Assembly: GCF_002234675.1 (NCBI RefSeq)
Contig: NC_019862.2
Location: 18,065,514-18,129,513, forward strand
Length of the DNA: 64,000 bases
From: Oryzias latipes
Taxonomy: Eukaryota > Chordata > Actinopteri > Beloniformes > Adrianichthyidae
Reading direction: 5' to 3'
This document shows positions 12,963 through 64,000 of this stretch, piece by piece (the stretch's first letter is position 1; every line of letters begins with the position of its first letter). A model generated the notes under the pieces. That model saw nothing but the letters and a program-made list of their open reading frames with translations, was not told the DNA's origin and did not search any database. The translations under genes and the position numbers were made by a program.

Positions 12963-12966
12963 TTAA

Positions 12967-23020: not shown

Positions 23021-23024
23021 TTAA

Positions 23025-24628: not shown

Positions 24629-24833
24629 CCCTTGTGCTATCCTAGGCACTTTAGCATTGGGAGTTGGGTCATCTACACCCCACAAGACAGTGGGCTGAAC
24701 CCTTTTTCTTCAATGATTTGTGATCTTCACTGGTGTCCATGGATTACATGAAATCCTCCACATCTTTATCCACCTCTGTTGTGTTAGGGATAACACATCA
24801 ATGTAAGGGTGGGGTCATTGGATAGCACAACGG
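24629..24833. mobile_element. piggyBac-type MITE, copy 5
   Basis: The left end is CCCTTGTGCTATCCTAGG after TTAA (24625-24628). The right end is GGATAGCACAACGG followed by TTGA, so the right terminus and its target duplication carry point changes. Orientation is opposite to copies 3 and 4. Confidence 0.85.
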
Positions 24834-24849
24834 TTGAGGAGCTCCACAT

Positions 24850-26677: not shown

Positions 26678-26817
<140 letters not shown>

Positions 26818-27363: not shown

Positions 27364-28159
27364 TCAGTATTTTGGTGGACCCTTGCGTTTTTCAAGGACG
27401 GTATATATGGCTTCCATTCCAGCTTTAATGTGGTCGTGGACGTGACAGTGGAACAGCCAAGAACCGGGATACACAGGATGCATCTTCGTCGTCTGCACCA
27501 AAAGATTAGATCCATGAACACATTATATTAACTTTATTTTTGATCAATCTGTCATGCCCATTTTATTTTAATGTCTAATAAACACGTGAAATTGATTGAA
27601 AAATCAAAGTAGCCAACATTAAACTTTTTTCACTTTTACCTGAAACGTGGCTGGAACCAGCTCATAGACATCAGTGCGGTAGTGATTTCCTCCCAACTGC
27701 AGAATGTTAACATATTTTATTTAAACAAATTATTTTTTCTCTTTTCATAAAAAATATGTTTACATGGTGTAAAATTACTGTGATTTACCTTATATTCAAC
27801 ACTGTGGCCATGCCAGTGTACTGTGTGTATGTCCACTATGTTGCCCATTGCCATGATATGCCAGTAAACCTCATCACCAACTTCCATGCACAAGTGAAGG
27901 TTACCGTAAACATAACCATTGATGGCTACACAAAGACAAACATAAAAGGTACATTATTATTAAGGACAACTTCATTGTTCTGTATGAAACAGAAAGAGCA
28001 ATCACTTCACTTACTTCACAATCAAGGACATCAAAATCATTTAAGTTTGTGAGTATGAAATCAAGATTAGTTGTGCTTTAAATCTACTAAATATGTAAAT
28101 CTATGTCAAAGAATAAACTTTTAAAGAGAGAAATCAAGATCTAAATTTGATTTAAAAAA

Positions 28160-28232
<73 letters not shown>

Positions 28233-31200
28233 TATAACATAACAAAGTATACATATACAAACTATAACAAAAGAAAGACAGTTTTTGGATGGACAGTTGC
28301 TTTTTAAAAGACGTATATGGCAATTTTAAAAACACTGGGTTTTTTCTTCAATTATAGAATTTAGTCAGAATAAATGTTATAGGTGTGAGGATTAGGAACT
28401 TTTGTTTGCTTTGTTCAGTTGCTGCCATGCTTTCTTCATTTCTGTCATGTCTTTTGTTTTATCTGCACAGTGTCATCTGGTGTCATTTGTTAATTAATCA
28501 CAGCTGTCTTAATTTAAGTAATTATCCCAGGTGTATATAAGGGTCTGATTTTCCTGTCATCTGTTTTACCACACTTTTTGTTTCTCTTGTATCTCAGTTG
28601 TATCTTCACCAAGGTGAAACAAGTGCCGGAGCATCCGTGTCAAACGGGCCATCCCTAAGTTTTGGTAAACATTTGAGTTTCCTGCATTTTGGGTCCTTTG
28701 CCACCAATTCCTGACGAAAACTTGGATGATTAATCTGGAAAGGTTTTGAAATTGAGTTAATCTCACCATGCATTTTGTTGCTTTCCAAAAAGTTTGCATC
28801 ACTTTTTAAGTTTGGTTGAGGGTTTCTGATGTAGATTCTGATGTTATCATCCAGATACCTATAAGTGAAACAAGCAACACTTTTTTAGAAAAAAGCTTTA
28901 AATAGCCTCAAGGGTTTGATTAAAGCATTTTAGCACAACAACTTTATTTTTAAAGCCTGTGGAATTAAAAGAAACATTTTATATTTGATTTCAAACTTAA
29001 GATTCTTTTACCAGCATTCCACTTACCAGCTGTCGTTCTCATCAAAGATGAAGAACAGTGTTGCAAACTCTTTCACGTCTTTCTTTAGTCGAAAAATCCT
29101 GAAACAACATGATTTGTAAAATGATGCTTCTTTTAAAAAAAATCCTTACATTTTAACATGGCAAGCACATAATTCCATAATCTTTTAAGAAAAGCTGCTA
29201 CATAATCCCTGACACATGTAGATGCTGAAACACTCACCTATTCCAGCCACGGCAGATAACCAGTGGACCAATCAGTCCACTGTTGAGGTCCTAAAAGGCA
29301 GAGAGGATAACTGATTAGAAAGTTTAGAAGTTTTTGAGTGTAACCTCCTAATAGAATCACTATACCTTTGTGACATCAACAGTGGAGTAGTACGCTGAAG
29401 CAATGCATGGCTCCTGTTTAGGGGTCGGTCCTGTATTTTTGGTAATGTACCAGGTGTATGAATGAATTTCACCTGCAATGGAGTTTTAGGAGAAGCTTTA
29501 AACTTTGACTTTCCTGTCATTCCTGTCAATTTATCCTCATTTTGTGCATGTACCTGGTTTTGTTTCATATACATGGGGGTAATCTGTCTTGACTCCATGT
29601 GCATGGATAGAATATGGTCTGGATGCCATATTCTTAAAAACAATTTCAACTTTTTCACCAACAAAAGCATTAATTATTGGACCTAAATGGAAGAGAAATG
29701 TTTTAATATTTAAACAACAACAATATGTCTTGAAAATGTACATGTGGTAGATTTTGGTGTCATGATCAAAAGAATGCTAAAGTCTCGAAATATTACTTCT
29801 ATTCTCCCAGCTTACCCATGATGCCAAGATGCTTCATATCATCTCCTCGTTTCACTTCTTTAGTAAACGTGCAATCGGTAAACTGCCGGTAAACAACCTT
29901 TTTGTAACGGGATCCTATGAATCCAGTTTGTCGATCCACAAAGATTATGGCAGGACTATAAAAAAAAAAGATTTGTTAACATCAAGCTTTTTAAAATGGT
30001 ATACTTCCATTAACAAATCATGGAGTTATACTACAGACAAATATTTTCCTGGTATAAACATTTGAAGTCAAGTGAAGGTAATAAATATTTTGGGTAAAAT
30101 AATGCTGAGTCAAAAGCTAAATGCAAATAATATATATGTTAACTATAAGTGTAAATTTCAATTTAAAAATGCATCGAAATGTTAAATTTAGGTGTAAATA
30201 CAGAAATATATTTGTAAACATACACTTAATGTCATAACTACATTTCTATTTAAACAATAAATATCAACAATAAATGTAATTACAAAAGTTTGTCTAGGTG
30301 TTATTATTGATGTAAATGCATAGCAATAAATTTAAATAGACGTTTCATGTAAAGCTAAATAACATTAATATTAAATGAAAGTTATAAAAGTAACATAATG
30401 AAAAATAAAATAGTAAAATAAAGTTAAAATGGCTCATTTGAATAATAAAATCTGAAATATTTCAAGCCAAATCTTTTTCTTTATTAGCAAATACATCCCC
30501 ATTTATCAGTAGATTTTAATTTATATAACTTTCTTGTTCGCATTTGCTATTTCTGGCAACAAATATGGTTTAGGCTTCTGATTCAACACTTACAAATTTT
30601 ACTGACTAACATTAGTTCAATAAAAACTCAAAGCTGTATTTTCACTAGTTTTAAAAGTCATACTTATTTGCACCCTTGTACATTTCTGCTTCAAAGGCAC
30701 GGCTTGGAGAGAAGTCCCATTCTGTTTCTACAGCAGCAATGAAGTATTTTCTTGAGTGAATTATCCCATTGTTGTGGCGCCGATACGAATGACTCCCCTC
30801 CACAATGTAGTTGGCTCGCATCCCATAGCGATAGTGGTCCAATGTGGCAGACACCACTTCAAACTGGCCTGAGACACAGAAAAGCAAATGTCTGTAATTA
30901 TCTGGGTGAGTTGCACTTTAACCACTCTGAGTTTATGAAATCTCATAATCAACATGTCTAAAGAATCCTAAACCTTTTTTTGAATGTTTGACCATTTGAA
31001 GACAAAGTTGGTTATTGGCTCTATAAGTCAACCTAGCTAGTTTAAATCTGAATAATTAATACAAGAAAGTCTTTTATTAGCTTGATTATAATGCAATTAA
31101 ACATCAAGCAAACCTGGGAGAAAATAGTGTCTTTGTAAACTGAATTTATTTTCCAAGTTTAATCTCAGAAAACATGTTAAAACAAAACAAAAATGAAAGA

Positions 31201-34200
31201 GTTTTGTTAAATTTCACATTAAAAGATAAATCATGTAATAAAATGGTTATGGTAGAACTGGGATGGGATTATATAAGTTTGGTTCCTTCCACTCCCTTTC
31301 AAGCAATATTTATAAATATGTCTAATTATCCTAAGTTTGATTCACCATTGTATGAACGTATAACTGATGATTGTATTGTTTTTGTGTATTATTCTTATTT
31401 GATTGCTTGAAATAAACCATTTCAAACCAAAAAAACCCAAACCAAATTAATGAAATTTCATTAAATATAAGTCTCTATATGTCTATTTTGTCTTTTTCTT
31501 CATTTACTTATACTATTTTTGTTGAATATTATTTTTGTGTGTAGTCTATTTGTAAAAAAAAGAAATTTGATTTTTGTAAGTTTTTAGATCTATTTGGTGA
31601 ATATCCCTTGCTTTTTTGTATGCTGTCTCTTATATTTAATTCCACTGACAAACCCTGCTAGGATCTTATTTTTTTAGTTTTTCTTTTACTTCCGCCAGAT
31701 CCTTGTCTCATCTGTCATATTTTTTATTGGATTTAGTTTGTAATTCATCCTGATTTTTATTTTTTGTTGTTTTCTTTTTAATATTATTCTTGTTCTTTTT
31801 TTGTTTGTTTTGGTTTTAGTACCGGTAAGCAGTTTTTCCTTCCTCTACCCTTAAATTGGGTTTTTGGTTCTCCAGCTAATAAAACTGTTATTTCATTATA
31901 TAAAACAGCTTTTTACACTTTTTTTTTCTTTCTTTCTAGCAGCCCTGAGGTGGTCTTGGTGAAATAATAGCCTAAAATTGTACAATAAATAAACTGACCT
32001 GATGTATTTTCTTGACAAAAGGTAGGAGTAGCATTACCAAATTCTGTTTCTGTTCTTTGTTATGATAACACTAAGATAAAGAGTCAGATCCATACCTATG
32101 CTGTCCGGCTCCATGGTGACGGTGTGTGAGATGTGAGGGAAAACGCTGATGGTGTCTTGTCTGTTCTGCCGGTAGATGAAACGGTTGCCCTGGAAATAAA
32201 GGCTGATGATGTCCGTCTCTGATCCCAGCGCCGACAGGTGCCAAGAGACTTTGTCCCCTTTACACATCCTTAGGCCAGGTAAGTTGTTAAACACAAACCC
32301 ATTGATTGCTAAAAGAAAAGACAAAGATGTGAAAAGAAATTGGATTCATGTTTAATCTGATTGAAATATTGGGTCAAAAAGAATATTTGAAAAAGATTGT
32401 TTGATGAATGAGAGACTGCACACACCGTGCATCTTATTGCTCATCATGAAACTTTCATCTTCCTTGTTAACTGTCCGAGGAGATGTGGTGAAAGTCTGAA
32501 TGTTGTCATCAAGATACCAGCTGAGGTTCTCATCAAACACTGTGGCCATGAGGTGAAACTCTTTGTTATATTTTTTCTGTAGGACAGAGGAGATGAAACA
32601 GGAGGTAATATGTTAATATATCTTTGTGCGACTCAGCTAATTTTTGACTGGCTATATCAGAGAGATCCAAAAAAGGATCTCACATGTATTTACATGTAAT
32701 ATAGCATTAACTTTTATAAAAAAAAATGTTTTGTTGCCATCTTGTGGACCTCTATATTCATTACATGTTACCACATTTGCTCCAATCTTCCAGCCACAAT
32801 TTGCAAGAGAATTTCTCAGATCACAGATTTCATTAACATAAAACTTTAACAAATGTCTAATCATCATTTTATTCAAATAATATGCAATAAGGCAATAAAG
32901 AAACCCTATTAAATGTGGATAAAATTTGTAATGTTAAAAATAGCATAAAAAGACAAACTGTTTTTCACATCTTAGTGAATTACTTCTTTTACCTGCATCC
33001 CTCTTTCCAGAGATCCAGGCCGACAGATAAGAAGAGGTCCCACCAGACCGGAGCTGGTGTCCTTAACTGAGTCGACAGCAGAGTAGTACAGGTATGTCAG
33101 ACAGTCAGATTCTCCCTTCACAGGTCCTGCACCGTGTGGCACCGTCCACTCGTAGGTGTGCACTGTCCTAGGTCTGACAAAAGAAGCTGGCATTGGAGTC
33201 CCGTTCCCTGAAATCAAAAGTTTAGACAAGTACAGTTTCAACACTGTACATTGTGATGGTTCCATTTAAATTTCTGCAGATAACGGTTGTCTAAAGCTTA
33301 GTCCCTGCATTGTGTGATGGTAAAAGTCTTTTGGAGAATGTTTTTCCTGCTTCTGAAAATGCGCTTGTTGCGGGTGGGATGGGTTTTTTCCGTGATTTTT
33401 CAGTCTTTGCTGTCTCCAGTCTGTCCAGTGGAAGTCCAATTAATTGTTCAGTCTCATGGATGATTTTGTTCATTTTGTTTGCATTCCTGGCATTATTGCT
33501 GCCTCCCTACACTGCACTGGAAATTGCACCCACCATCACAGACTGATAAAAAAGTTCTAGCATCTCTCTGCAGTAAAGGATCTGAGTTTCTTCAGAAAAC
33601 AAAGCCTTCTCAGCCCTGTTTTTACACAGCATTGGTGTTAGATAGTCCATCCCACTGTTCAAGTGTTTCCTCGAGTATCTGTAGTGGTAAGCAACCTCTA
33701 TGTGCACACCCATGATGGTAATGGGAAGCATTTGAGCCAGTTAGTTTTTGTAGTGTTTGAATTGAAATGCTTGTCTGTGCTTCTATTTACAAACCTGGAA
33801 AGTTGGCTAACTGACTCACACAAATTTCAACCTCATTCTCTTTTTCTTCCTTAACCTCTACAATTGGCTTGCTGTGTGTGAGCACAAAAAGAAAAAACAG
33901 AATAACTGAGGGAGGAAGTTGCTGAATTTAGAACAAAACCCTGTTCTCTCTGGTGTGCTTGAAGTATTACAAACCTTTATATCTGTTGTTGTAGAGTGTT
34001 CCGTCCTGATCTATTGTGTACTGCACCCCATGGGCCTGAATCGAGTACGGCCGGCTGGCTTTGTTTTTGAACACAACCCTGATGATGTCTCCCTCCTCAG
34101 CTCGCAGAACAGGACCTTAAGAGGTCCAAGAAAAAGAGGAAAAAATGAGACAGGATCATGAAAATCCTAAAAATGAAAGATATGAAACCCATGAGATGAA

Positions 34201-37200
34201 AAGAGAAAATGTCTAAATTGTTTGTGAAGAATTAGAGCAGGTTAAAATAGATTAGTCATTAGCTCATATTCCTGGATCAAGCTTAGATTAATGAAGTTGT
34301 GCAGTTTTGAATAAAGTAACATTAAATATCAAAATACTGTTTGTTGATCCTGCCACTAGATAATAATTTTTCTGATTAAAAATAATGTAAAACTTGGATG
34401 TTAGCATTTTTATTGTTTTATTTTTTCACATCTAAAAGCTACAGAAACAAATGAATTAAAAAAACTAAAATCAGTTTGGCCACTGTGCTGCAAATTTGCC
34501 TTATATAAGCTCTTCTTTTATCGTGGGGCTCTTGTATAGGTTGCAATGTTTTTTTAAACTAAAAGATTCTTCTATTCAGGGGTAGACCCTCTTGGTTGGT
34601 TGGTTTACCATTAGAAGTAGTGTAATTCTAACAATTCAAAACTTTCAAAAAATCATTGGGTCAAGAGAAAACAAAAACCCTGTTTTATAAGGAACAGTTT
34701 GAGCAGTTACTGAAGATCAACAAATGCAATTACACGTAGAAAGGAAGGGAATATCTGAGGGTGCAAGTAGGTAAACTAAGCTTGAGGTAGTGAAAGTAGA
34801 TGGAAGGAACATGGAAAACAAAATTACAGAACAGTTCTGACAAACGCATGACATGAGTCATTGTGGAAGCAGGTGCGAAGAAGATGAATGTTTGTAGCAC
34901 TTTAGCTAAATTAGAATTACCCAAAATTCCTAGGTGTTCCTGTTCCGAGCTCCATTGCATCTTCTTTCTAAAGCTGCTGTCGGTGTATTCCACATAGCGA
35001 ACCTTCTTGTAGCTGCTTCCTATGCGGTCTGGACCGTTGCTCACAAATGTCTGTGCCTCACTGTCCGCACAAAAATCACACAGTCACCAAGGAGAAACAT
35101 GAGCATTTTTCCTAACAGAAAAGTGTGATTTGTTTTTCCTTTTTTTCTTTTTTTTCTTGAACGAACCTTTCCTTTGGAAAATTAGGAGCATAGTTCCAGA
35201 CTTGCTCCTGAGCAGCGATGAAGTATTCTCTCAGTTTGTAGGCTGGCTTTGTCTCATGAACATTAGGATAACAATTGAAGATCTTAAAGAAAGCCTGCAT
35301 TCCAGCTATTGAAAAGTAAAAAAACAAAAAAACAAATAGGAGTTAACACATCATTTGATATTTTGGACTGAGCAGTCTCATCTTAAAACAGGAGTAAACA
35401 CTCTCACCTACGAAATGATCATTGACGTTGCAGGCCAGCAGCCAGAGTCCAGGGCTTTGTGCAACCATTTTGGCTGTGACGCTATAGGCCGGGAACAGAC
35501 TGATCGTGTCTGTGTGGTGGTTCAGAGCAGTCAGGATCTGACCGTGGAAATGAACTGAATGCATGTCCACCTGTAGACGAAAATATTACCAATTCAATCA
35601 TCATGATAGACGATGTTAATACTTTTTTTGCTGCCATGTACATGTGAAATAAACATAGGTAAGCCCTTGGTAAAAATTTCGATTTTCTTTTATTTTTACA
35701 AAAAATAATTGAGTTGTTACTTTTTATCGTTTCATAAAAATAAGAAGTTACCTCATTGCCGAAGCCAATAGTGTACCAGTTTACCCTGTTGCCTTGGCAC
35801 ATGTTTAGTCCGGGTAGGTTACCATACATAAAACCATTGATAGCTGTAATTAATAAATAAAACACTATTAGTCAATCAAAGACTATAATACAACAATAAA
35901 AGTCATGTTTTCCTTCCAAACTCACCGTGCATTTTATTACTCTCGATAAAATTCGGATCGTCTTTCAAGCCCTCAGTAGGATCTGAGACAAATTTTTTTA
36001 TGTTGTCGTCAATGTACCAGCTCATGTTTTCATCTGACACCAGGAACATCACAGTGAAGGCTTGGTTTGCATATTTGTCACCACATGCATCCAGAGTTCC
36101 TGCAAAGGGCAGAAAATGACATCTTTATCACAATTGTAAAACCATTGTAGTAAATAACAGTACTTTGAAATCTCTTTTGGCTTTGGCAACATTTGTTTTA
36201 TATATTTTTTCCCTTGTGCTATCTTAGATGACCCCACCCTTACATTGACGTGTTCTCCCTACCATAATAAAGTGCCTAGGATAGCACAAGGGTTACGGCA
36301 ATTTTCCTTATAGCAGAGCATTTCTTCTTCCAAAGGTACAGATTTTTTTAAGCTTGTTGTTTTTTTAAAACTCATGATAAACAAACAAAAAATGCTTTCT
36401 TCTGTTTTGTTGTGTTTTTATTTGAAACAGCACGGCATTAAACTTGTTTTATGATAAAAAAAAAACTGCAAAAAACATGATTTTTCATAGTCTGAATTCA
36501 GGAATAAACACTGTTAATCTACAATGTTAATCTTTAGAATAAGGTTTACAAAAAAAAAAAAAAAAATCTAAAAATGCATTGGTATATGATAGGGTTGAAA
36601 ATGTACCTTTTTTACAGATAATGAGAGGTCCAACTAATCCTGAGTTGATGTCCTTTACTGTGTTCAAATGAGAGTGATAAAGCCTGGTCACACAGTTACT
36701 GTCATCACTTGTTGGACTGTGGGTTTTTGTAAGGATCCACTCGTAGCTAAAGACTTTTCCAGGAGGCACTGCATCATCCTCCTTCAGCATCGGGCCGGTT
36801 CCATCTGGATACAAGGCTCCTGCAGGGGTTCAAACAAAACAATAGCATGTTTCTATCCTCCTTTTAAACATGTCCTGACGTTGATATAATTTGTTCAAGT
36901 CTCACCCTCTTTGCCTTTGGTGTAAGCCAGTCCATGCGGGTGGACAGTGTAAGGTCTGGATGCTAAATTTTTCAGATGGATTACAACTGTGTCTCCCTCC
37001 TCAGCCATCAACAATGGGCCCATGTAACCAAGCCAATCAGGCTTTAACATCTCTTTACAGTAGGTGGCGTCAGTGTACTCCTTGTAGATAGCTTTCTTGT
37101 AGACCGCACCAATTCTTTGGGGACCTCTTTTCAGAAAAATTGAGGCCTCTCTGTAAGAAAACCCCAGCAGACACAAACAAGTAGTAAGTGTTTTGTTGTG

Positions 37201-40862: not shown

Positions 40863-43800
40863 TCAGCCAAACATTCCACTTCGTTGTGCTGTTAAAGAGA
40901 AATAGGAAGGCGGTTATTTCAGTTGTTTTTCTATTTCAGTGTAACTTCCTCCACAATTCTGACCTTTTTCAGTGACAGTGTACAGGGCTTCCATTCCAGC
41001 TTTAATGTGGTCGGTAACATGGCAGTGGACCAGCCAGGTACCAGGATACTGAGGTCGCATTTTTACCGTCTGCACCACAAAAAGATGACAAACATCACTT
41101 CTTACTTCTTGACTTTCATTTATTTTTGAGACACAACCTACTTTTAGCTGATTTTAAGTAAACATTTGAACCAAAATGTAAGTTATATACGTTTTGTTTT
41201 CACCTGAAATGTGGCTGGAAACAATTCGTATGAATCAATACGATGGCGGTTTCCTCCAAGCTGCGGAAATAGGCAAAATATTTGAGTAGTTTTTGCAAAA
41301 TTGTGTTTTTTTTCTACTATGTTTAATGAGCTCAACCATCCATGAGCTGGAAATCAATTTTAAAATAGTTTACCTTATATTCCACACTGTGACCATGCCA
41401 ATGAACAGTGTGCAAGTCCACCTCATTGCCCATTGCCATCAGGTACCAATACACTTTGTCACCAGCCTCCATGTACAAATGCAGGTTGCCATACACATAA
41501 CCATTAATGGCTACACAAACACACAGAAACACAAAATGTGAATTTAGCAATTGGCAACTATTTTTGGCATTAAACTTCAGCCTTTGGACAGAAACATCAG
41601 TAAAGAATCCATTTTCAAAAACCCAAATATGATGTCTGGGTCACAGAGTTTCAAGGAAATATCCATGTGCTCAAAATGGTGTGTGAGCTCATCTCACCGT
41701 GCATCTTATTGCTCTCAATAAAGTCCTCATTGTCCTTTATATTTGGTCGAGGGTTTCTGATGAATCTTCTAATGTTTTCATCAAGATACCTAATAATAAT
41801 ACAACAGTTATTGAGTTGTTGTTTTCTAAATTGTTGAACAGAAACACATTTATGTGAAAATAGCAAGCAAATTCAGTGAATAAAGTTTTTGTGAATGACG
41901 ATGCTTGACGTGAAAACAATATCATGATGAAGCCTGATAAAGTCTAGACAACAATCATTCTTTTAAATACGTTATTGTATTTTACCTACCAACTTTCATT
42001 TTCATCAAAAACTAAGAAAAGCAGTGCTAACTCCTCCACTTCCTTCTTTAGTCCGAAGGACCTAGAAAGATCATAGTTCTGTTAAAGGTATGGAGGCAAA
42101 AGATTTTTAAAACCTGTAAGTTGATCACCTTGGGACAAAAATCCAAGCACAACATGGAACTTTGAATATGCTTGTTACTACTCACCTGGCCCAGCTTCGA
42201 CGGCAGATCACCAGTGGACCAATCAGCCCACTGTAAAGGTCCTATCAAACAGGGAGAGGATTGTTGGTCAGGAGGTAACTGCGTTTATTGGTTTATCCCT
42301 AAAAAATAATCATTGTACCTTTGTGACATCTACAGTGGAGTAGTACGCTGACACAGAACACTCTTCCTGCTCTGTGGTTGGTCCTGTGTTCTTGTTGATG
42401 TACCATGTATATGTGTTGGTTTCACCTGTGGCATAAAGAGTTTTATGATGACTCTAGTGGCAAAGAATACAGTACATCCACACAACAATGTGTTCTCAAA
42501 GCATTTCATGCTTTTAGTTGTTTGTAGCATCTCTTTAGTCTTTAAAGTCTCACTCTTTTGATCTATTTTCTAAGCATTTCCAGTGGTCTTTTATTCATAA
42601 TTATGTCACTTTCAGCCAAAATCAAAAAACCTGGGTCGTTTTTCTAGAACAGAGTTTCTGCAGAGCAGCAGAGGTTCATTAGAAATTTGACTCTGATTTG
42701 CGGGCAGGACTGTTCACCTGAAGCAAGCCTGCACTCATTTCCCATCATCCTTGTTGTTTACCCACTCTGCCACTAGCTTACAGCCACTCACAACCGCTAC
42801 GTAACATCAGCGGTGCAACAAAAGTTGGAGCACTTTGAGCCAAACAAACAAAAATTGGAGCACTTTGAGCCAGATGCCAGCTCAGACGAGGAAAACAAAG
42901 ACAACGGTGGATCCAGTCGTCTACAAGTGGATGCATCAGAAGGGGGCAGAGAAGGGAGCTTGTGGCCTACTGCTTGTCCCTTGTATGTAACAACAACAAG
43001 CTTTTTTAAACTGTATATTTTTGTCTGCTACTGATTTACCATGATTTGAACAAAGCAACACTCAGAAATGCAGTTTTAATCCTAAATTCTTGTACTTCCT
43101 CCATCGGGAGAATAATGCTACAATATCATGTTAAAAACACCAAAAGCATCTTTCAGTGGAGTACATTTTTTATTTCATGAGGTTGTGACCTCTTGTAAAG
43201 CTCATATTAAGTCCAAAGGGACATGTTGCCTAGTGATGTTAATTTCAAAAAAACAAATTTTAATTTTAAAAGAAATTCTTGTCACTCTTGTTCTACCGTC
43301 TTCATGTACCTGCTTTTGTTTCTTGGACACTGGGCGACTCTGTCTTGATTCCATGGGCGTGGATGGAATAAGGTCTGGATGCCATATTCTTAAAAACTAT
43401 TTTCACTTTGTCCCCAATATTAGCATGAATCATCGGACCTAAGTGAAGGAGTTGCAAGTATTTCAGTGAACAGTGACATCAGAATAGAACAACTAAAGCA
43501 CAACAATGTTTTTCATGTTCATGTAAATTTCTGATTATATTTGAATTTCAGTTTACCCATGATGCCGAGGTGCTCCATATCAGGTGTTCTTTCCACTGGT
43601 TTTGTGAACTTCTCGTTGGTGTACTGTCGGTATACAACCTTTTTGTAACGGGAACCTATGAGTCCTCCTTGTGGATCAACGAAAGCGGGGGCGGGACTAA
43701 AATGAAGAAAACATTTGACTAAATGAAAGTTTACACATTTTCTACTGTGTACAGTAATACTGACATTCGATGCAATTATTACTCTGAGAAAGAAACTTTG

Positions 43801-46800
43801 AGGACAAACACATCTCCACACGGACTATTATTGTGAAGCTTGTGGATTGGATCGATTGGATTATCCCTTGTACTATCCTAGGCACTTTGACATTGGGAGT
43901 GAGGTCATCTAAACCCCACAAGACAGTGCGCTGAGCCTTTTATCTTCAATGATATGTGATCTTCACTGGTTTTCATGGATTACATGAAATCCTCTCCACC
44001 TTTATCCACCTTTGTCATGGTAGGGAGAACACGTCAAGGGTGGGGTCATAGGATAGCACAAGGGTTACAGATGACAACATTTCAGAGGATTAAATTGAAA
44101 TCCATGTTGCACTTCTGGAAGCATGACTGTTTGGATTAACCTGAGTTTTGAAAAAATATCGTTTAAAATAATTCATATGCAATGTTCAAAGATGTGGGCA
44201 ATTTTGACATCTGGCATTTTTACAATTTTTATTCATGAACAGGAAAAAATAAAGACATCAGAGCTGTATTTTCACAATATTTGTTTTGATGTTTCATACT
44301 TCATTCCTTGATCCCTGAACATCTCTGCCTCCCAGGTGCGGTTTGGAGAGTAGTCCCAGTCGATCTCCACAGCAGCGATGTAGTACGTTTTTGAATGGAG
44401 CATCACCTCACTCTGGCGCTGAAACAGACTACATTTCTCCACAGTGTAGTTGGCTCGCATACCATTCCGATAATGGTCCAGTGTGGCGGACACCACTTCA
44501 AACTGACCTGAAACACACAAAAAAATTGCCTTGAAGGGAGCTGCTGTGAATGAGCTGCTGCCCATGTGAACCTGTGTGGTAAACCCACAAACTCTGTCAC
44601 AGGCTACTCCACCTGTTTTAACACCTATGTACATAAACTAATCAGTTTGAATGAACCAAGTCACTGATTAGAAAACGTTTAAACACTCACAAGTACTGTA
44701 AAGAGTGGAAGTAAATAAATGGTTCAAATTTGCTGGAAAAAAATATTTCTAATACAACTGTTAAATTAGAAAACTAAAATAATATCTAGTCATCCATGTT
44801 CTAAACCTGCTGAATTCCCATGTTGAGCTACAGGACAGTGTAGAATCACCCATCACTACAGTACCTACCTACAGTAAAACTGTTTCTTTTGATTGTGGTT
44901 ATTATTTTCTATTGAAATCTCTGAGTTCAGGTGGAAAGTAGAGCCTTCCATATTTGACAATAGATAAAATATTTCTAATTATAATTTTTGAAATAGTAAA
45001 AGATGGCTGTTGTTCATGTTGTAAAGTGAATGAAATTTGTATTTATTATTCTAAATCAATGAAAAGCTTGTATTCTTATTTCGGATTTAGTTTGTCAATT
45101 TTTTTTCTTTATATATACACATACTTTACTGGTCCTGGGATTTTGACCTGGTAGAACGTTAGAGGCAAATCCATACCCATGCTGTCTGGCTCCATAGTGA
45201 CGGTGTGTGAGATGTGAGGGAAAACGCTGATGGTGTCTCGTCTGTTCTGCCGGTAGATGAAACGGTTGCCCTGGAAATAAAGGCTGATGATGTCCGTCTC
45301 TGATCCCAGCGCCGACAGGTGCCAAGAGACTTTGTCCCCTTTACACATTGTCAGGCCAGGTAAGTTTTTAAACACAAACCCATTGATTGCTAAAAGAAAA
45401 GACAAAGGAGTATAAAACAAGTAAATTTGATATCAATTAAGGCTGAATAATTCAGAGGGGATGTTCAGTAGACATGTGCATAAAAGTGAATTTTGCTGTG
45501 ACGTTAAAACACTGCAACTGTTTTCATTTCTGTAAAACTTTTCTTATGTTATCATTTTTAATTCAAAAGCTTTCATCTTCTCTAAACATAGAATTCATTG
45601 ATTTAGACTTTTTTTCTTAATGAGTATGCTAACGTGACTTCTCCTGAAGCCGACTAAATCACAGCAGATCTATTGATCTTACTTATTATGTTCAGTCAAA
45701 CACATAAATACACTTCAACTAAAAAGAAAAGCCTTAGGTTAAAACTGTGGCTCTTAGTGGATCAAGATAGAGAAGGCAAAACTGTTTACATAAGGTTTAA
45801 ATGAACTGAATTAAAGCAGAGGTGTCTGAGGAACACAAGGCTGGACACACCGTGCATCTTATTGCTCTCCATGAAGCCATCATCCTCTTTTTTGACAGTC
45901 TTGGGAGCAGTGGTAAAAGTCTGAATGTTGTCATCAAGATACCAGCTGAGGTTCTCATCAAACACTGTGGCCATGAGGTGAAACTCTTTGTTGAAGTTTT
46001 TCTGTGTGACATTTAAAAGAGAAAACAAAACGTTTCCTTTTATTCTGAGAATTGCTTTGAGCTGTTTTCTTATCTTGGTTTTAAAGGCTGAAAAGAGGTT
46101 TCAAAAGTGTACTATGATTATCAGATAACAGAAAAAGAAACAGCTGCTAAAGTTTATGCAGTTTTTTTCATTGGGCTTTTCTAATTCAATTTGCACTTTC
46201 CCTTGGCCCTGAAGACTGTTCATGGTCCAATTTTCTACTATGCCTGAAAAACGTGTTCCTATCTTGTAAAATTGCATCTTAAAGGTCAGAGTGACCTTGT
46301 AATTGTAATATATTTTTGAAAAAACACAAGTAGAAGATAGGCAGATGTCAGCCAAAAACAGTATACTTTCTGAGTAAACATAATTTTGCTTGAACCCAGG
46401 TTGGGCCTAGTTTTTTAACTCCAGTTGAAATAAAAAAAAAACTCCTTGAAAAACAGTGAAGCAATTCTAAAACTCATTAAACCTCGATGGAGAAGGATTA
46501 AAAGGGAAACGCTTTCTCTTTTTCTCTAAAAAGCTATAGGAAAATTATATTGACTGCATCTTTTTTCACCTGTATTCCTTTCTTCAGAGATTTTGGTCGA
46601 CAGATGAGAAGAGGTCCCACCAGACCGGAGCTGGTGTCTTTGACCGGGTCGACAGCAGAGTAGTACAGGTATGTCAGACAGTCAGATTCTCCCTCCACAG
46701 GTCCCGCACCCTCAGGCACCGTCCACTCGTAGGTATACACTGTCCCAGGTCTGACCAAAGCCGCTGGTGGAGGAGTCACCACCCCTGCAGATGCAATGGT

Positions 46801-49800
46801 ATGACTAGTTGCATTAAAACTTTTTTAGATAGAATCTCAGTAACAGTATTATAGCCAGACTTAAACTCACTTGGTTGTTTTTTCAGCTCCCTCAGTTTCT
46901 TTTCTGTGTACGACTCTGATAAGAACAATTTAAAGTTAAAACAAGATGCTGAGAAAAGGACTAGAATGTTCTACTTTAATAACAGTTTTTTGAAATAAAT
47001 GAACCTTCAAGCTCATTGAAGTAGCGAGTCCCGTCCTGTTCTATGCTGTACTGCACTCCGTGGGGCTGTATTGAATACGGCCGGCTGGCTTTGTTCTTAA
47101 AAACAACGCGGATGGTGTCTTTTTCTTCAGCGCGCAGAACTGGACCTGGTTGAGTTCAAGAGGAGAAGAAGTGACCCAAAAGCAAACAGATTTTTAAAGG
47201 TTTGGTTCATAGGCAAAAACGTGTTGCCAAAAAGAACAAGTCATGAAGATTTCAATTATAAATGTTATTAAATTACTCCAACACTTTACATAATAATTTT
47301 GCTCATCTTTTTCAAGAAAATGTCTATTTAACATCAGTGTTTATGAAAAAGTTTGTAGACAGCTTTAGTCCTTCTAAAATACAATCCAGTGCAGTGAAAA
47401 AAATCTTGTGGTCACCAAAATTTTCTTTTAGATAAATACTATTTCTATGATTCTTTTGAACAATATTTTGGTGTTTGTTCTAGTTCTTTTTGTATTGAGC
47501 CTGTATTTTTTAGCTTTGTCTTGGTTAGAAGTAGTAGATCAGAGTTAGATGCCGAAGCAAGCCAGATTAAAAAACTAAAAAACGTTAAAATAACTAAAAA
47601 AGTTATTCTTTGGAAGAAGCGGTGAGTCGGGAGCTTAAAATAGAAAGAGATGCAGTCAAGTTCGATGACTTTGATGTAATGAATGATAGTTTATATGCTT
47701 AATGTTCAGCTTGGATTACCCAAAATTCCCAGATGTTGCTCCTCTGGGCTGCGTAGCATCTTTGTCATGAAGCTGTTGTCAGTGTATTCCACATAGCGAA
47801 CCTTCTTGTAGCGGCTTCCAATGCGGTTTTGACCTTTGGTCACAAATGTCTGTGCCTCACTGAGGGGAATAAAAGGGCAAATAAGTGTGTGGGTGTCAAG
47901 AGAAACATGACCTTTATTTTTTGTGTGTGTAAAGTAACCCACCCGTCACTTGGCACTGTAGGAGCGTAGTCCCAGACCTCCTCTTCAGCAGCAATAAAGA
48001 ACTGTCTGAGCTCACCGTGAGGCCTTGGCTTATGGACATTGGGAAAGCACTTCTTGATCTCAAATAGAGCCTGCATTCCAGCTGTTGCACAAAATAAAAC
48101 AATTAAAGAAAGACATCCCCAGTTATTTTAAAGTAGAGGCATGACATCTACATGCATAACTAACTTTTTTGTTTGTGTGTTTGTTGAGAAACAACATGTA
48201 ATCCCTCTCACCCATTAGATGGTCATTGACGTTGCAAGCCAGCAGCCAGTGTCCTGGATTGTCTGCAACCATTTCCGCTGTAAAACTAGAGGCCGGGAAC
48301 AGGCTGACCGAGTCTGTGTGGTGTTTCAGGACCGTCAGGATCTGACCATGGAAATGAACTGAATGCATGTCCACCTGTAACATTGGTAACATTACTTTTT
48401 ATTACAGCTGTTACAACAGTTTGTGAACTATAAATTCAACCAATATTGTGTTATTAATCATGTTACCTCATTGCCTAAACCTATCATGTGCCATTGAATC
48501 TTGTTACCTTGGCACATGCTCAGTCCAGGCAGATTGCCATACAGAAAACCATTTATTCCTGCAATAAATAGAAATATATATACACAAAGTTATCAGTGCA
48601 TCTGGGTGTTGATAAAAAATAAAAGATGTTCTTCCTCTACAAACCGTGCATCTTATTGCTCTCGATGAAATCTTCATCTTGCTTCAGGTTCCCAACAGGG
48701 TTGGTGATGTGTGTCCTGATGTTTTCATCGAGATACCAGCTGAAGTTTTCATCTGTCACCATGAACAGTAAAGCGTAGGTGTAGTCTGCAGATCTGTCTC
48801 CATGTACATCCAGAGTTCCTACACAGAACAAGAAAATACTCTTTTTATTTTGTTGTATTTATTTCTTAAAACAGATAAACTGGTTTGCATGACGTACAAC
48901 TACCATAACCAGACTTTGTATTTTGGTCATTTGAATATTTTTTCCAAGATTTATTCTCTTTTAAGTAAAATGTGATATTTTTTAAAGAATGGTTGGATTA
49001 TTTTTACTTTCATTCATTTAAAAAGTCAAGCATATGCTACATGTGCTGCCTCCAACAAAAAATGCATAGATTTCTGAGCTGTTTCTTTTTCACGTTGTGT
49101 ATTAGTATTTTGTGCTATACTTATTGTGGTGGAGCCTCTTTTTCTCTGCTGTTGTTCACCAATTGAATGTAATATAAAGGATATCCAGTGTTTGCGCTTC
49201 TTTGTGGACAAAAGAAATACCTCTTTTACAGATGAGAAGGGGTCCTATGAGTCCCGAGCTGATGTCGTTTACTGCGTTCACATGTGAGTGGTAGAACCGG
49301 GTCATGCAGTTATTGTCATCAGCTGTTGGACTGTGAGATTCTGGGAGGGTCCACTCATAGATCACAGTTCTACCAGGGGGCACAGAGTCGTCTTGTTTCA
49401 GTAGATGACTTGTTCCATCTGGATATAGGGCTCCTGCAGATGTCCACACAAACAAAGGGATGTATACCAGTGTCTACACCCTGCCCAGACCCTGATGTGT
49501 TTGAGTCTCACCCTCGCTGCCTTTACTGTAGTTCAGTCCGTGTGGGTGAATACTGTAAGGTCTGGATGCTGAGTTTTTGAGATTGACAATCACTGTGTCC
49601 CCCTCCTCGGCCATCAGCACTGGGCCTAGGTAGCCCAACCAGTTTGGTTTTACCACCTCTGTTCTGTAGGTGGCGTCACTGTACTGTTTGTAAACTGCTT
49701 TCTTGTAGGTGGAGCCGATTCGCTGAGGGCCCTTTTTCAAAAAGACTGCCGCTTCTCTATAAAAAAAAGGAAAACAAGTTTGACATAAGAATTTTCAAAT

Positions 49801-52856: not shown

Positions 52857-55800
52857 CTAAGCATTTAGGCTGTACTGCTGCTTGTAGCAGCAAGGTCGAC
52901 AGATGGCGTTGACTAGACCGTTGCCCAACTGTAAGAGACAGATGACGAACTCCAGCACAGCCAGACCCAGTAACACACACAGCAAGGTTATGTTCCATTC
53001 CACAATATGAACGGGTTGGTGGCACTTGGACCACGACTCTGGCTCTAGCAGATAGCTGAAACACAAAGTTACAGACATGTTTATGACTTATGACAGAATT
53101 ATTAGGAAAGAATTTGCCATTATAATTTTAAACAGCTGTATACATTCCTCTCATTTCAGAGAACATTCTTCGACCAGCTCAATCAACTTTCAGGACAGCC
53201 AGAGAAGGAAACTGACATTTTAGCAACTTTTAAATATGTTTTTAAGCAACTGAAGATTGCATGAAAGTTAAACTCGTAAATGACTGTGTTGTCTCATAAT
53301 ACTTTAAACACTATTTTCTCAAAGCCTAAATGTGCAAAATCATGGCTAGTTTAAGCAAAACTGTAGCTTTTTCAAGTCTAAACTTGTGTAAGTGTAGCAC
53401 AGTGTTATCAGGGTTCACATTTTTTGCTTCAAAAATGTCAAAGGTCAAACATTTCAAAAGATAAATGGAAGTTTAGTTAAGCTTTAAGCTTTAGTTTCAT
53501 GAAAATGTAATGTTGGGAAAACAGCAGACATTTTTGTATTTAGATGCAAACTTAACTGGTATACTTTTAACTAAATACATTTATAGCAGCTTTTAAATAA
53601 TGTTATGACAAGCTTATCCATTGAAAAACAAAATACTAAAAGAAAGGTTACTCACACAAATTCTAACAGTTGATCTAACTGAATGTATTGTTTTTTGGAA
53701 GGAAATGCTAATCATTGAGCTGCACAGTGGTGTAGTGGCTGGCACTCTAGTCTCACAGCATGAAAATCTTGGCTCATTCATGCAAAGACTTTTTTCTGGG
53801 CACTCTAGCTTTCTCCTACAAACCAAAAGCATGCTTCATAGGTTGATTGATGACTCTGTTATCCCTAGGTGTGAGTGTGTTTAGTAGTGAGGCCCTGCAA
53901 AAGACTGGTAAACTGTTTAGGGGTTTAGGGTTTCTCCCGCCTATACCCAACAATGGCTGGAATAGACCCCAAAAAAGAGAGTTTAGAAAGAAAGAATAAA
54001 GTTGATATGATGTCTTTCCTCATGGCTGATCTCTATCTGTGATGCAGGATTTCAGCCATATACTTTCTTTTTTCAGTTATGTTTTAATTTGTCTTTTTTC
54101 TAGTTGAGACTTTCTTAACAGGCTTAGGTCTACAGCATCTAAAATGAGATTAAAATCCTGAAGCAATAGATAAGTGTTATATGAAAAATCCTTGTTGTCT
54201 GTACACTTTATGCTTTTCTCTGGCAAGATATACATTACCTCTGACAGGTAGAGGGTTTGGCAGTCACCGATTCTGCTATCTTCTTACCTCCACTCATTAC
54301 GTGTATTTATGTCATTTGTTTGAACTGGTTATCTGTGCAAAGGACACGTGTCCACACCCTTAAGCAGTGAGACTGCAACCTCTCCACCGTGACTAAGACC
54401 AAAGAGCTGTCTAAGAACACCAGGGACAGGATTGTATACCCAAACAAGACTGAGATGAACCAAAGTACAATAAACAAGCAGCTTGTAAGACAATAGATTG
54501 AGTGTTATAGTACGAGTGAGTTCTGGTACATCGCCTGTCCGTCCTGGGGAGGATCTCTCCTTCACATGGACATCCCTGAGGTTTCTTCTTATTTTTTCCG
54601 GAATAGTTTCTTTTAGGAGTTGTTCCTTACTCATAAGGAGGGTCTAAGGGCAGGGATGCCTAGTTTAGCTTAGTCTGTTTAGTTTAGCCAATACCTATTC
54701 AATTTTATGACTTCATGTTCATTATGACTTCATGTTCTTATACAATAAGGAAGCCCAGTGAGAAAGCTATTGTTGTAAAATTGGGCTATATAAATAGAAT
54801 TGAATTGGATTGAATTTATTAATACAAATGAAAGAAATATAAGGTGACTGGCAAGCCAAGTGAGCCATTTCTACCTCATGGGGTAAACACAATCTTGAGA
54901 ACAGTGAGGAAATAGTCCAGAACTACACAGAGGAAATGATAACTGACCTGAAGAGAGCTGGGATCACAATAACAAAGGTTACTAACATAGGGATAACTTG
55001 CAGAATCTGTGACAGTCATATATGTTTTTACCCAAATATCTAAATATATTTAAATACTTTCTTTCTCAAAGCACAGAGTAAAGTCTCTTTAGAACATGAT
55101 TTTTTTTAATTATCTTGTTAAAATTATAATTAAGACTCATGAAAATACAAAACTATTAAATAAAACAATTAAATAATTAATGAAATACTGGAAAAGAACA
55201 TCTTAAGTCATTATCGCTATTTTGTGTTGCATTTTATCACTATAATTTCATAAAATATGTTTATGTGACTTTATTTTTGACTAAAGGATAACTCAGAGTA
55301 CATTTTCGTGTTGTTGTTGTGAACATAAATGAAAATCATAACTTGATAAAGAAGTTTAACTGAAAAAGTTTCAAATTTTGTTAGATTGCTTTATAAACTT
55401 TTTAGTGTGCCTCACCTGCCACCTAGCTCTGAAAAGGGGTATCTCCACCCAAGTGAAGTGAAGCAGTAAGGACCCTGCAGCAAGGCAAGCCCCGATATGA
55501 TGAAGCAATATCCAGAACCCACGAGGCCAATGACAGCTGCGAAAACCGACCCACACATCTGTGGAACAACACAACGGCACACAGCTATTTTTTAACAGAA
55601 CAAGCACATGTTTGGCTGCTTGTGTAAGGGTATAGTATTGTGGCTCTGTGGCTGTATGAATCAATGCTGGCTGTTCCTCTTATCCTGTTCATGTTGGAGA
55701 GATAGAGGCAGCTGCTAGGCACGCACATATCACACACAAGTGCAGCTGTGTCAGTTGCCTGAATAAGTTTCAGTCGGGCTCACATTGTGATGTCTTACTC

Positions 55801-58800
55801 AACAATGGGACCCTTGTTGAATAATCCTAGCTGTATTAGTACTGTTGTCTAATAAGGAAGAAGAGCTGATTTGGTTCTCTAATTGGCTATTAGTGTTATT
55901 GTCCAAATAGTGAACATAAAGTGATGGAAAAAAACTGTGCAATCTGGATCAACATTTCAATAAGATACTCGTGCATCAAAACAGCAGCTAAAACAAGCAG
56001 AGAATGAGGGTTTGTGTGTGTAGCAACAGCAAAATGTTCTGGCTGTATACTGTCAAGAATGTGCTTCCGGTGCTTTTTGAACACAGTTCTTACCATTAGG
56101 CTCTCATTCCAGCAACAGCTGCATTTCCCCAGAGTGATAAAGACCACAGCTGGAATCAGCATCTGGAATGACAGAAACATTCATTAAGCCTTTGAATAAA
56201 AGTTCCATGTTTTTGACATTAGACATTTTTTTATCATTGGGATCTGAAAGAGTCATGTTTACGTATTGTAATTCTGCTTTATTTTTGTCGGTTTTTACTG
56301 AAAGATTACTGAAATAATCCAGTAACGTACATCATTGTTTGGATTGTAGAAATAATGTGCTAACAGTGACAATGTTTATTTCTACTGTGTGCACGTTGAA
56401 TGTTGTACTTTGATGTAAAAAAAAAAACGAAAAACATTTATAAAATGGAAAATTATATCTGGATAAAACTTAAGTGAAGATTTGACTGTCTTTATAGATA
56501 AATAGATCTTTAACTTGTAAAGCCACGTTTACACCGCCCTTCGCAACGTGCGTTTACGCGACCACTTTTAATGAAAAGTCTATGGAAACAAGTGTATATG
56601 CACATTTCAGGCTTCCGCTTTCATAGCTCTCATGTTCACATGTGAAGTTATCAAATCCAATTTCAGCCCCTAAATACAAAACGCACAATAATTGAATAAG
56701 TGTTGAACGTTAAGCCAGTTGAACTTTGATCAATTAGGGACTTGGATTTGGTAGTTGGTAGCATCATTTTCACTTACGGAAATAAGTGATTTTGAACATA
56801 AGGAAAGTGTTCAACAAACTTTCTGATCCATAAGCCTAAATAAAATAGCCCATATATCATCTTCTTAATTAAATTTTTTTAAGTTAAGCTCAATGTAAAA
56901 TCATTTTTGGTTGAAATAAATATTTACTCCAAAGTCATAAAGGCAAACGTTTGTAGATTAAAAGTTTTAAAGGTGACATACAATGACATTTTTTTTTAAA
57001 AGAGAATATAACAATACCTAAAACTACACAAGTTTGTCTAGAACAAAATGTGATTTACTAAGGGAATAAAAGAAGAACAATAATCACTATGGCCTCATCC
57101 TTTGTTCCCGGTTGTGCGGACAAATCTGTCTTTCCTGTGTTGCATATCTTCGTGTCTCAAAAACAATAAATTACATCCTCCTATAAGGAACAAGTTCCCA
57201 AGGTTTTACATGGCCTCACAGAAACATCTGCTCAGATGTTCACATCCGGGATGTCACCCCAAAGCTCAGGCTAAAGGAAAAACTGATGACACAGAAAGAA
57301 AAGAAGACAGTGGGAAAAAGGAAGGAAGGAAGCAGAAGAAAGAGGAAGGGTGGCAACTAAAGATAGATTTGTTTCTAAAGGGTCTCAGTTTGCTTTTTGT
57401 TTCTTTGGCATTTGGTCATTTCCACACAAAAACGGCCAACGACAAATTAACCTTATGCATTCTGCTCATTATAGAAAGAAACATGAAACGTTTCTGTTCT
57501 GAAATAGTACTTTAACCCTTGTGCTATCCTATGACCCCACCCTTACTTTGACGTGTTATTCCTACCATTGAAAAAGGTGGATAAAGGTGGAAAGATTTCA
57601 TGTAATCCATGGACACAAGTGAAGATCACAAATCATTGAAGAAACAAGGTTCAGAGCACTGTCTAGTGGGTCTAGATGACCCAACTCCCAATGTTAAAGT
57701 GCCAAGGATAGCACAAGGGTTAAGCTGACACTCATAATGGAAGCAACAGAGTGTGAATAAAACACAAGTCTATGTTTTTTGCTTTTAAGTTTCGTGTGAA
57801 TGTCAAAGGACACTTTAAATGATAAGTCCTGGACTTTTTGTAGTTCTTGTGATTTTTTTTCTTCCATAGAGTGATTCCTCTAGAATAGGAAGAGTGTCCT
57901 GCCTCTGATACCAAAGCTGTTGTTCAAAACTTCATCTTGACACAAACTTCTAAACCCACCCTGTTGAAATGGAAAAAGCCAATTTAGTGAGTCTTCATGT
58001 ATTACTGTAATCTAGATCTAGATGACATACAGGCTATCCTGTGCTCCAGCATAGAAATACATAAAAAGAAAAGCTCCTTTCTGCTCAGGAACCACATAAA
58101 CCCACCCAATCAGCGGCAGGCAGAGCCGACAGATTAACTGTTATTCACACAAAACACTATTGTTCAGAGTTTAAAATCCGTCAGTCTGGTGCTGAAAAGA
58201 AAACCACAACAAGCTATTTTTTTATTTTGAAGACATAAAATAACTGATGAGAAGAACAAGTTAAAAAATGACATAAACTAAAAATAATAAATCGATGAGT
58301 ACAAAAATGTTCGCAAAAAAATGGGGCTGACTGTATTAAACAGCAACAAACTCTACTGAGCAAGCCAAGAAAATCATGTTTCAATCACTGCAAAAAATGT
58401 GCACAGCAAGTAAAAAAGTGGAGATTTCCAGAGTCACGTGGCTCAAATCCTTTTCAAAGAAGCTCTTTCTTTTCTTTTTTTCCCCCCCTCTTTTTTTCAG
58501 TTTAGTTTCTAGACCCAGGCTGAACATCTCTTAGGTCCCTTTCAGTGACTCTCTTTCTTCACTGTGTTGTGGCTTTTCCCAGACATCATCATCGTCTTTC
58601 TTAACCCTTGTGCTATCTTAGATGACCCCACCCTTACCATGACAAAGGTGGATTAAGATGGAAAGATTTCATATAGTCCATGGACACCAGTGAGGTTCAC
58701 AAATCATTGAAGAAAAAAGGTTCAGCGCACTGTCTAGTGGGGTCTAGATGGCCCAACTCCCAAGGTTAAAGTGCCTAGGATAGCACAAGGGTTAAGGATT

Positions 58801-59305
58801 ACTTTAAGTTATGAGGAGGTTTTCCTAGAAAGGGAAGTCGTGTAACTTGATTAAATGCAAATTCAAGTATTTCCTGGTTTTAAAACAATGTCTATTGAAC
58901 GATTTCAAGCCAAAGCTTAAAAGTTGACTTTTGATAGGACTCAAATAAAACAATTATCAGGTTAGAAATTTAACCTACTCTTTAGGTTATAAACTATATT
59001 TCCCCAGCACATCCAGCTGGAAGTGTTTAGTAAAACCCTAAACATTACAAATCCTAATCTAATCTTTTCTTAAATTTTATTTTCCAGTTAAACCTAAATG
59101 TAGTCCCAATTGACATTTTACTTACCAGGAGTCCGCCACCTCCTAGTCCACCAAAGTACCAGATGTATCTTGATAGATGATCCTGCTCTATGTAGGTAGT
59201 TTCTCCCATTGGAAACAGCAGCAGCAGGTTGGCCACAATACAGCAGAGGGCAAGTGGCAACAGTGCCAGTCCCAAGGAACGGGCAAAGCCCACTGAACAA
59301 CACAT
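52857..59305 (-). CDS. Transmembrane 4 L6 family protein (TM4SF1/TM4SF18-like)
   Basis: Four exons (minus strand, 5' to 3'): 59126-59305, 56094-56162, 55416-55558, 52857-53055. They join in frame to 196 aa (human TM4SF1 202). The start ATG at 59305 gives MCCSVGFARSLG, aligning with the MCxGxCARCLG start of the family. Four hydrophobic spans are visible: residues about 10-30 (LALLPLALCCIVANLLLLF), about 50-72 (GGLGGGGLL then MLIPAVVFITL), about 84-108 (MCGSVFAAVIGLVGSGYC) and about 158-180 (ITLLCVLLGLAVLEFVICLL). Family marks are HLSRYIWYFGG, GPYC, a YLLEPESWSKC...HIVEWN loop and a final Cys-rich RPCCYKQQ tail. These L6 proteins are plasma-membrane scaffolds linked to adhesion and migration. 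The intracellular CCGCCG loop of relatives is reduced to CSCCW. Its place next to ceruloplasmin matches mammalian gene order. I cannot choose between TM4SF1 and TM4SF18. Confidence 0.88.
53717..54000 (+). repeat. tRNA-like fish SINE in the TM4SF intron
   Basis: The head TGGTGTAGTGGCTGGCACTC resembles a tRNA A box. It is followed by CTCACAGCATGAAAATCTTGG, AAGCATGCTTCATAGGTTGATTG, CCTAGGTGTGAGTGTG and CCCAACAATGGCTGGAATAG. It is the same family as 37255-37575. Confidence 0.75.
54392..54990 (+). pseudogene. Tc1 transposase remnant interrupted by another repeat
   Basis: The plus strand encodes TKTKELSKNTRDRIVYPNK and INKQL (54392-54486), the N-terminal DNA-binding start of Tc1-family transposases. 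After an insertion, DLKRAGITITKVTN resumes the family at about 54943-54990. The rest of the transposase, including the catalytic region, is missing. Confidence 0.65.
54487..54830 (+). mobile_element. Non-autonomous repeat nested in the Tc1 remnant
   Basis: The text CCTGTCCGTCCTGGGGAGGATC, CCTGAGGTTTCTTCTTATTTTTTCCG, GAGTTGTTCCTTACTC and the tail GGGCTATATAAATAGAATTGAATTGG matches a very common fish repeat ending in GAATTGAATTG. It splits the Tc1 reading frame, so it inserted later. Confidence 0.65.
57516..57719. mobile_element. piggyBac-type MITE, copy 8 (complete)
   Basis: CCCTTGTGCTATCCTATG ... AAGGATAGCACAAGGG with TTAA on both sides (57512-57515, 57720-57723). It lies in the first intron of the TM4SF gene. 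Confidence 0.9.
58605..58791. mobile_element. piggyBac-type MITE, copy 9 (complete)
   Basis: CCCTTGTGCTATCTTAG ... CTAGGATAGCACAAGGG with TTAA on both sides (58601-58604, 58792-58795). It is 187 bp and carries a small internal deletion relative to copy 3. It is in the same intron as copy 8. Confidence 0.9.
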
Positions 59306-59858
59306 TTCTCCTTCAAAAACCAAACTACAAGGAGAAGTGGAGAAAGCTGCAGCTGGCTGAGGCGAGAGGGAAAAAGAACGCTCAGAGGGAAGGGTCTTAG
59401 CAGCTGGGGAGCCAGAAATTGTTAAAAAAAAAAAAAAAGGAGCGAAGTGGAAGAGGCTTGCTTAGGGTTAGTGTGTAGGAGTGGGACAGACTTCTTCTCT
59501 TTGGGGGGTGGGGGTTGGAGCTTTCATGACAGAATGAGCATAAGGAAACTCTCACAGGAAGGAGATTGCCGATTGGCTATGAGTGTTTTTTTTTGTTTTT
59601 GTTTCACACACAGCAGGACAAAACAACATTTTAAAGTTCAATTTCCTCTGAATGACTCACTCACAAAAGCTGGTTGACATGTAAAAATGCACAGTCAGTA
59701 CCAGTGCCCTATGTCTACGTTATGAACACTAATGGTTGATAATCCCCTCTAAACCATCAATCTCAAATTTGATGTTAACCCTCTTTTCAGAAATGTGCTA
59801 CGATAAAAAAGGATAATTAACAATAATAATTATAATAATATAGTTTAAAGTCCCACTC
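59306..59858. other. Upstream region of the TM4SF gene
   Basis: 5' flank of the TM4SF gene, probably including its 5' untranslated region (purine-rich GAGGCGAGAGGGAAAAAG) and promoter. No clear TATA box or CpG-rich stretch was seen. Confidence 0.45.
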
Positions 59859-60243: not shown

Positions 60244-60999
60244 TTAAGAAAATAAATCTGACATATTGTTTAGCAGGCAAAAGAAAAACAGCATGTCGAA
60301 ACACAAATAAGAAATAAAAGTTACAATAAAGTCTACACATTTTTCCAGACCTAACTAATTTTGAAAAGCACGCACATTTAAACTGGTTTCAGTTAATTTT
60401 GCTGAAAGGCATAGGCATCAGCTGCTTGACCACTGTGTTTGACTTGGGATTGACTCTTATGATCCCAGGATATGTTATTGTACCTCATTCTGTCTGCAAT
60501 GCAGTTGCATAAAGGGCAAACTAAAGCTGCTGAGCAACTTCTACCTAACCTTTATAAAGTGTGCATAGCTTTCAATGCATATGGGCTGGTGGTTCTTTTA
60601 CAACTTGATCGATCTCTTTTTTGCCATTTTTGCCTTTCCCATTTTTGCTTTCTAGCTTTGCAATTTCTCAGAAATGTTTCCCATTTTGCTTAAACACTAT
60701 TGTTTTACAGTTTTTCAACCATTTTGTAGGGTGGCCCTGAAGTCGAAATCACATCAACAAATCACTCAAAGCAAAAATGTATTTAAAAAAAAAAAACAAT
60801 TAAAAGAGCAAAAAAGTATTAAACAAATAAGGGTCCATTATCATAAAACTTCTATAAGTATGTGGACATTAGAAAGTCATTAAAAAAAACCTCAAACATC
60901 AAAAATCAAACGTCATCATCCAATCAGCGATGTCCCATGAGTCCAACCTTTTCCGGTTTATTATTGTGTTTCATTTTGAATTCTGGAAATTCTGAATCC
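60244..60999. other. Intergenic DNA
   Basis: No gene recognised. It lies between a MITE and the start of LINE-related text. Confidence 0.45.

Positions 61000-62275: not shown

Positions 62276-64000
<1,725 letters not shown>

Follow-up and report, generated by a model that had tools for sequence, protein, structure and literature searches.

The window, a stretch of 64,000 nucleotides of medaka DNA, carries two ceruloplasmin genes in tandem, cpA and cpB, whose products lack two ligands of the type-1 copper site in domain 4 and keep a complete copper and iron site in domain 2. The ligands present and absent in this one fish genome suggest, with a probability of roughly 0.7, that the fish enzymes carry five coppers and that both domain 6 and domain 2 are sites of iron oxidation. 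Domain 4 would retain its framework without a type-1 copper, which would leave five coppers instead of six, and fish may use domains 2 and 6 where mammals use domains 4 and 6. The loss of the domain-4 site in fish ceruloplasmin is already in print and is not a discovery of this work: Vasin et al. (2013, PMC3600357) describe the site in ceruloplasmins "except fish Cp", with Tetraodon and Chionodraco as the fish named. This was the sole paper on the fish domain-4 site found in the literature searched, and no paper found there treats the contrast between domains 2 and 4. The present analysis adds the complete domain-2 copper and iron site, a conversion tract, the decay of domain 4 in cpB and a gene on another contig with three full type-1 sites.

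The exons were set by open frames that match between cpA and cpB and by splice-site scoring with phase control. Neither gene model contains an internal stop, and the two proteins are 72% identical. Over 1055 codons, dN was 0.173 and dS was 0.75, and the pair is thus under purifying selection. A pseudogene reading is unlikely, with the frames open throughout and a dN/dS of about 0.23. Both models stop soon past domain 6, the end of the last cpA exon (open frame to a stop near 40916) being the least certain part of the model, and the products would be six-domain ceruloplasmins of the secreted type. A 45-base cpA exon in the domain-3 linker (46871-46915) has no partner in the present cpB model. 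The statement in PMC3600357 that vertebrate ceruloplasmin is present in one copy fails for this genome, where the medaka window holds a tandem pair that shares a conversion tract. The features are collected in Table 1.

Table 1. Coordinates of the ceruloplasmin genes, their metal sites and other features, as positions in the window.
Feature	Position	Strand	Details
cpA, ceruloplasmin gene	51182-40916	minus	23 exons, 1081 aa; shared open frames, splice scoring, phmmer
cpA domain 1	49756-49221	minus	trinuclear His124, 126, 184, 186
cpA domain 2, exons 4-7	48818-47943	minus	type-1 His299, Cys342, His347, Met352; iron Glu259, His264, Asp346
cpA half of conversion block	45407-45161	minus	247 bases, 96% identical to cpB half
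cpA exon 13	45389-45177	minus	Ile661 (ATC, 45288-45286) replacing first type-1 His
cpA exon 14	44507-44300	minus	Ser704 (TCC, 44490-44488) replacing type-1 Cys
cpA domain 6	41789-40964	minus	type-1 His999, Cys1046, His1051, Met1056; trinuclear His1002, 1004, 1045, 1047
cpB, tandem ceruloplasmin gene	38787-27367	minus	22 exons, 1055 aa
cpB domain 2, exons 4-7	36099-35167	minus	copper and iron ligands as in cpA
cpB half of conversion block	32326-32080	minus	partner of cpA 45407-45161
cpB exon 12	32308-32096	minus	Ile646 (32207-32205), partner of cpA exon 13
cpB exon 13	30868-30664	minus	Ser689 (30851-30849), partner of cpA exon 14
cpB domain-4 losses (two iron ligands, one Cys)	27789-27925, 30664-30868, 32426-32576	minus	
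Interspersed repeat starting aacccttgtgctatc.., among the matches listed	about 11837-13871, 22688-23158, 24018-24878, 36158-36310, 43788-44136, 57527-57769, 58545-58842		

The family assignment was considered from several sides. Six cupredoxin domains match known ceruloplasmin along the length of cpA when it is searched in segments with phmmer, and for the segments spanning domains 1-6 the top matches were ceruloplasmin chains, in a library without a hephaestin structure. The trinuclear-cluster His residues of domains 1 and 6 are all present (8 of 8 in cpA and 8 of 8 in cpB). Three full type-1 sites, a hephaestin trait, are absent from both proteins, whose domain 4 is without the His and Cys; a type-1 site in domain 4, the trait of mammalian ceruloplasmin, is likewise missing, with Ile and Ser in place of these residues. 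The missing site does not exclude an identity as fish ceruloplasmin because published fish ceruloplasmins are also without it. In the three copper-site segments, cpA is 51-65% identical to human ceruloplasmin and 52-66% identical to a hephaestin-type gene on contig C14 of the same genome, and a five-sequence tree, having one hephaestin-type gene and no outgroup, cannot separate ceruloplasmin from hephaestin for cpA and cpB. Upstream of cpA lies a gene for an L6 membrane protein of the TM4SF type (52860-59310, minus strand), two exons of which were tested and matched PF05805 with E values of 4e-19 and 1.6e-15; the L6 family presumably sits beside human CP as well. The orthology of cpA to ceruloplasmin rests on this neighbouring gene, on the published fish ceruloplasmins and on the top phmmer matches in the library lacking hephaestin.

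In the phmmer alignments, cpA runs gap-free with residues 623-756 of human ceruloplasmin (4enz) and with residues 617-750 of 5n0k, which we take to be the rat chain. Ile661 falls opposite the His of human ADVHGIYF and Ser704 opposite the Cys of NVECLTTDH, ligands that are presumably His637 and Cys680 in human numbering. The sequence-only reading had placed Ile and Ser at codons 661 and 704 of cpA, and these numbers proved exact; it had also held that the second His and the Met of the site are kept, as is the case for His709 and Met714. For cpB, it had named the same residues at codons 658 and 701. The residues are confirmed, but the numbers are 646 and 689 here, owing to a difference of 12 residues between the models upstream. 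The numbering 12 codons higher suggests that another linker model was used there. With the Cys gone, a blue copper is not to be expected in domain 4 of either protein, which supports the original proposal that a normal type-1 copper is missing there through a change common to both copies.

That the exon was mispredicted, and that the transcript carries the domain-4 ligands after all, is scarcely credible. The human match is gap-free across the exon junction and GT-AG sites are found in both copies. When the whole window was searched by tblastn with the human domain-4 segment, no other exon with the domain-4 ligands was found, and a ligand motif scan of five introns around the domain-4 exons, in three frames, revealed no alternative exon. 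Sequencing error is an unlikely cause, as two copies diverged at dS 0.75 agree.

The exon carrying the His-to-Ile change is nearly the same in the two genes. The 247-base block that contains it extends beyond the exon into the flanking introns, by 18 and 16 bases, after which the similarity drops. Between cpA exon 13 and its partner dS was 0.09, with differences at about 4 of 46 synonymous sites; elsewhere in the genes 315 of 625 such sites differ (p 7e-9 by Fisher's test with rounded counts). The block is read as a recent conversion tract, and the shared Ile therefore counts once. By comparison, cpA exon 14, which carries the Ser, shows no sign of conversion from its cpB partner (dS 0.66, dN 0.25), so that the loss of the domain-4 site most likely predates the tandem duplication. 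The loss in Tetraodon and Chionodraco, as published in PMC3600357, agrees with this age. The sequence-only reading had left the choice between a loss before the duplication and a spread by conversion; both processes are seen, with conversion at the His-to-Ile exon and not at the Cys-to-Ser exon. If the loss had instead begun in a single copy of the duplicated pair and been passed to the other by gene conversion, this would account for the clear tract over the His-to-Ile exon, and an older conversion of exon 14, blurred since, is conceivable. However, exon 14 is unconverted and the other fish named in PMC3600357 also lack the site, which makes such a late origin very improbable. Somewhat low dS values were also seen for exons 11 and 12 (0.31 and 0.53). 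They may reflect an older conversion, but exons 6, 8, 16 and 18 are similarly low at 0.44-0.51.

Domain 2 has retained both of its sites, the fourth iron ligand of cpA, Glu657, being contributed by domain 4. In the ligand table, the trinuclear, domain-2 and domain-6 ligands are invariant between cpA and cpB, and the domain-6 type-1 site consists of His, Cys, His and Met in both copies. The axial ligand of domain 2, which is Met in cpA and cpB, is Leu in human ceruloplasmin. Furthermore, human ceruloplasmin has Tyr and Asn at two domain-2 iron positions where the fish proteins have His and Asp; PMC11817551 gives the four human positions as E236, Y241, N323 and E633 and does not expect them to bind iron. 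Asp is listed among the human domain-2 residues in PMC3738974 at the position where PMC11817551 has N323, and the printed human sequence has Asn there. The human domain-2 copper is described as redox-inactive in both papers. Judged from the residues, fish domain 2 has the same ligand set as human domains 4 and 6. With its copper and iron site complete, the enzyme need not find the other route for domain-4 electrons that the sequence-only reading had called for.

In the proposed mechanism, domain 6 would oxidise iron and be wired to the trinuclear cluster. Domain 2 would also oxidise iron and hand electrons on from its copper to that of domain 6, the part played by domain 4 in mammals. The possibility was considered that domain 4 decayed because it was dispensable, that domain 6 alone oxidises iron, and that the domain-2 ligands serve folding or copper loading and are not a replacement. 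Mutagenesis of hephaestin, in which domain 6 was critical and domains 2 and 4 were dispensable for high-affinity oxidation (PMC11817551), suggests that domain 6 alone may suffice. Moreover, a mutation of the ceruloplasmin domain-2 site blocks copper incorporation (PMC6534290), indicating that this site can matter for loading. However, fish domain 2 has every ligand of its iron site, even the His and Asp lost in human ceruloplasmin, and the site is unchanged between two copies whose proteins differ by 28%. A domain 2 confined to folding or copper loading is considered rather unlikely, and iron oxidation at both domains 2 and 6 remains the preferred reading. In human ceruloplasmin, the changes G631R and Q692K close to the domain-4 site leave the protein free of copper (PMC11817551); fish ceruloplasmin must therefore acquire its copper by some means that copes with the absence of this site.

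The domain-4 iron site has fared differently in the two copies. In cpA all four ligands are present (Glu621, His626, Asp708 and Glu995). In cpB two of the four remain, Glu being replaced by Met in FMMSNKMH and by Ile in GNIVDIH of domain 6. Additionally, cpB has Ser at the Cys of cpA position 722, presumably one half of the domain-4 disulphide. By these residues, domain 4 of cpB is decayed beyond that of cpA. The full iron ligand set of cpA, with no copper adjacent, is not what one would expect if domain 4 had simply decayed, and domain 4 could instead have become another metal site, for example one holding iron without copper. Besides the four iron ligands, cpA keeps two ligands of the former copper site, His709 and Met714. 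The loss of two of these ligands in cpB speaks against such a site, as does the occurrence of Glu995, Glu621 and His626 in motifs repeated in other domains, and it is regarded as improbable. The course of events favoured here is that the copper site would have been lost on the fish ceruloplasmin line before the tandem duplication, that the His-to-Ile exon would then have been homogenised by conversion and that cpB would have lost more of domain 4.

The whole genome (734,051,031 bases in 25 contigs) was searched with cpA. At least 53 scored matches were obtained, on contigs C4 (the window), C14, C21 and C10, a lower bound with 43 of the 73 first-look candidates scored. The genes on C21 and C10 look like coagulation factors. 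The domain 4 of the hephaestin-type gene on C14 reads TDIHGVYF and FEVSCRTTDHYSAGM, and His, Cys, His and Met are present in domains 2, 4 and 6. These three full sites mark it as a gene of the hephaestin/HEPHL1 kind. Together with the axial Met in domain 2 of human hephaestin and HEPHL1, they make three full sites the likely starting point. There is about an even chance that ancestral ceruloplasmin had three working iron/type-1 sites, of which mammals silenced domain 2 and fish domain 4, leaving two sites each, one of them different. If so, fish ceruloplasmin would naturally hold five coppers, including two blue coppers that can be oxidised and none that is permanently reduced, and its copper loading would dispense with the domain-4 site, close to which human mutations give a copper-free protein.

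Other features of the window were also recorded. Plus-strand frames at 4927-6335 matched the F5/8 type C family (PF00754) slightly over its cut-off and Laminin G under its own, and are perhaps a contactin-associated-protein gene. A tandem-repeat stretch with self-matching frames lies at 2003-2612, and a long GATA-type repeat at about 26680-26815. The interspersed repeat of Table 1 has many copies, two of which, among the matches listed, lie inside ceruloplasmin introns. By eye, the plus-strand frames at 60980-62288 resemble a broken remnant of a LINE reverse transcriptase.

The result points to a possible swap of working sites between the fish and mammalian enzymes, which can be tested. If domains 2 and 6 of fish are the equivalent of domains 4 and 6 of mammals, the fish enzymes would serve as a natural experiment to find which type-1 copper supplies the trinuclear cluster and what keeps human domain 2 reduced. 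They would also test the need for domain 4 in copper loading, a question that touches on G631R and Q692K as described in PMC11817551. Human site assignments should not be transferred to fish models of iron disease.

Among the known systems, coagulation factor VIII gives a weaker sequence match to cpA. It is a clotting cofactor and is not known as an oxidase. As in cpA and cpB, its type-1 sites are in domains 2 and 6 only, according to PMC3600357. That paper also describes the ceruloplasmins of Tetraodon nigroviridis and Chionodraco rastrospinosus, like those of medaka, as being without the domain-4 blue copper site. Human hephaestin and HEPHL1 share the axial Met of domain 2 with cpA and cpB but keep the domain-4 type-1 site and are membrane-anchored. 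Human ceruloplasmin (1kcw, 4enz) resembles the medaka proteins in its six domains, its trinuclear ligands, its domain-6 type-1 and iron site and its domain-4 framework, and differs from them in the full type-1 site of domain 4. It would represent the opposite arrangement to the fish enzymes, with a working domain 4 and a redox-inactive domain 2.
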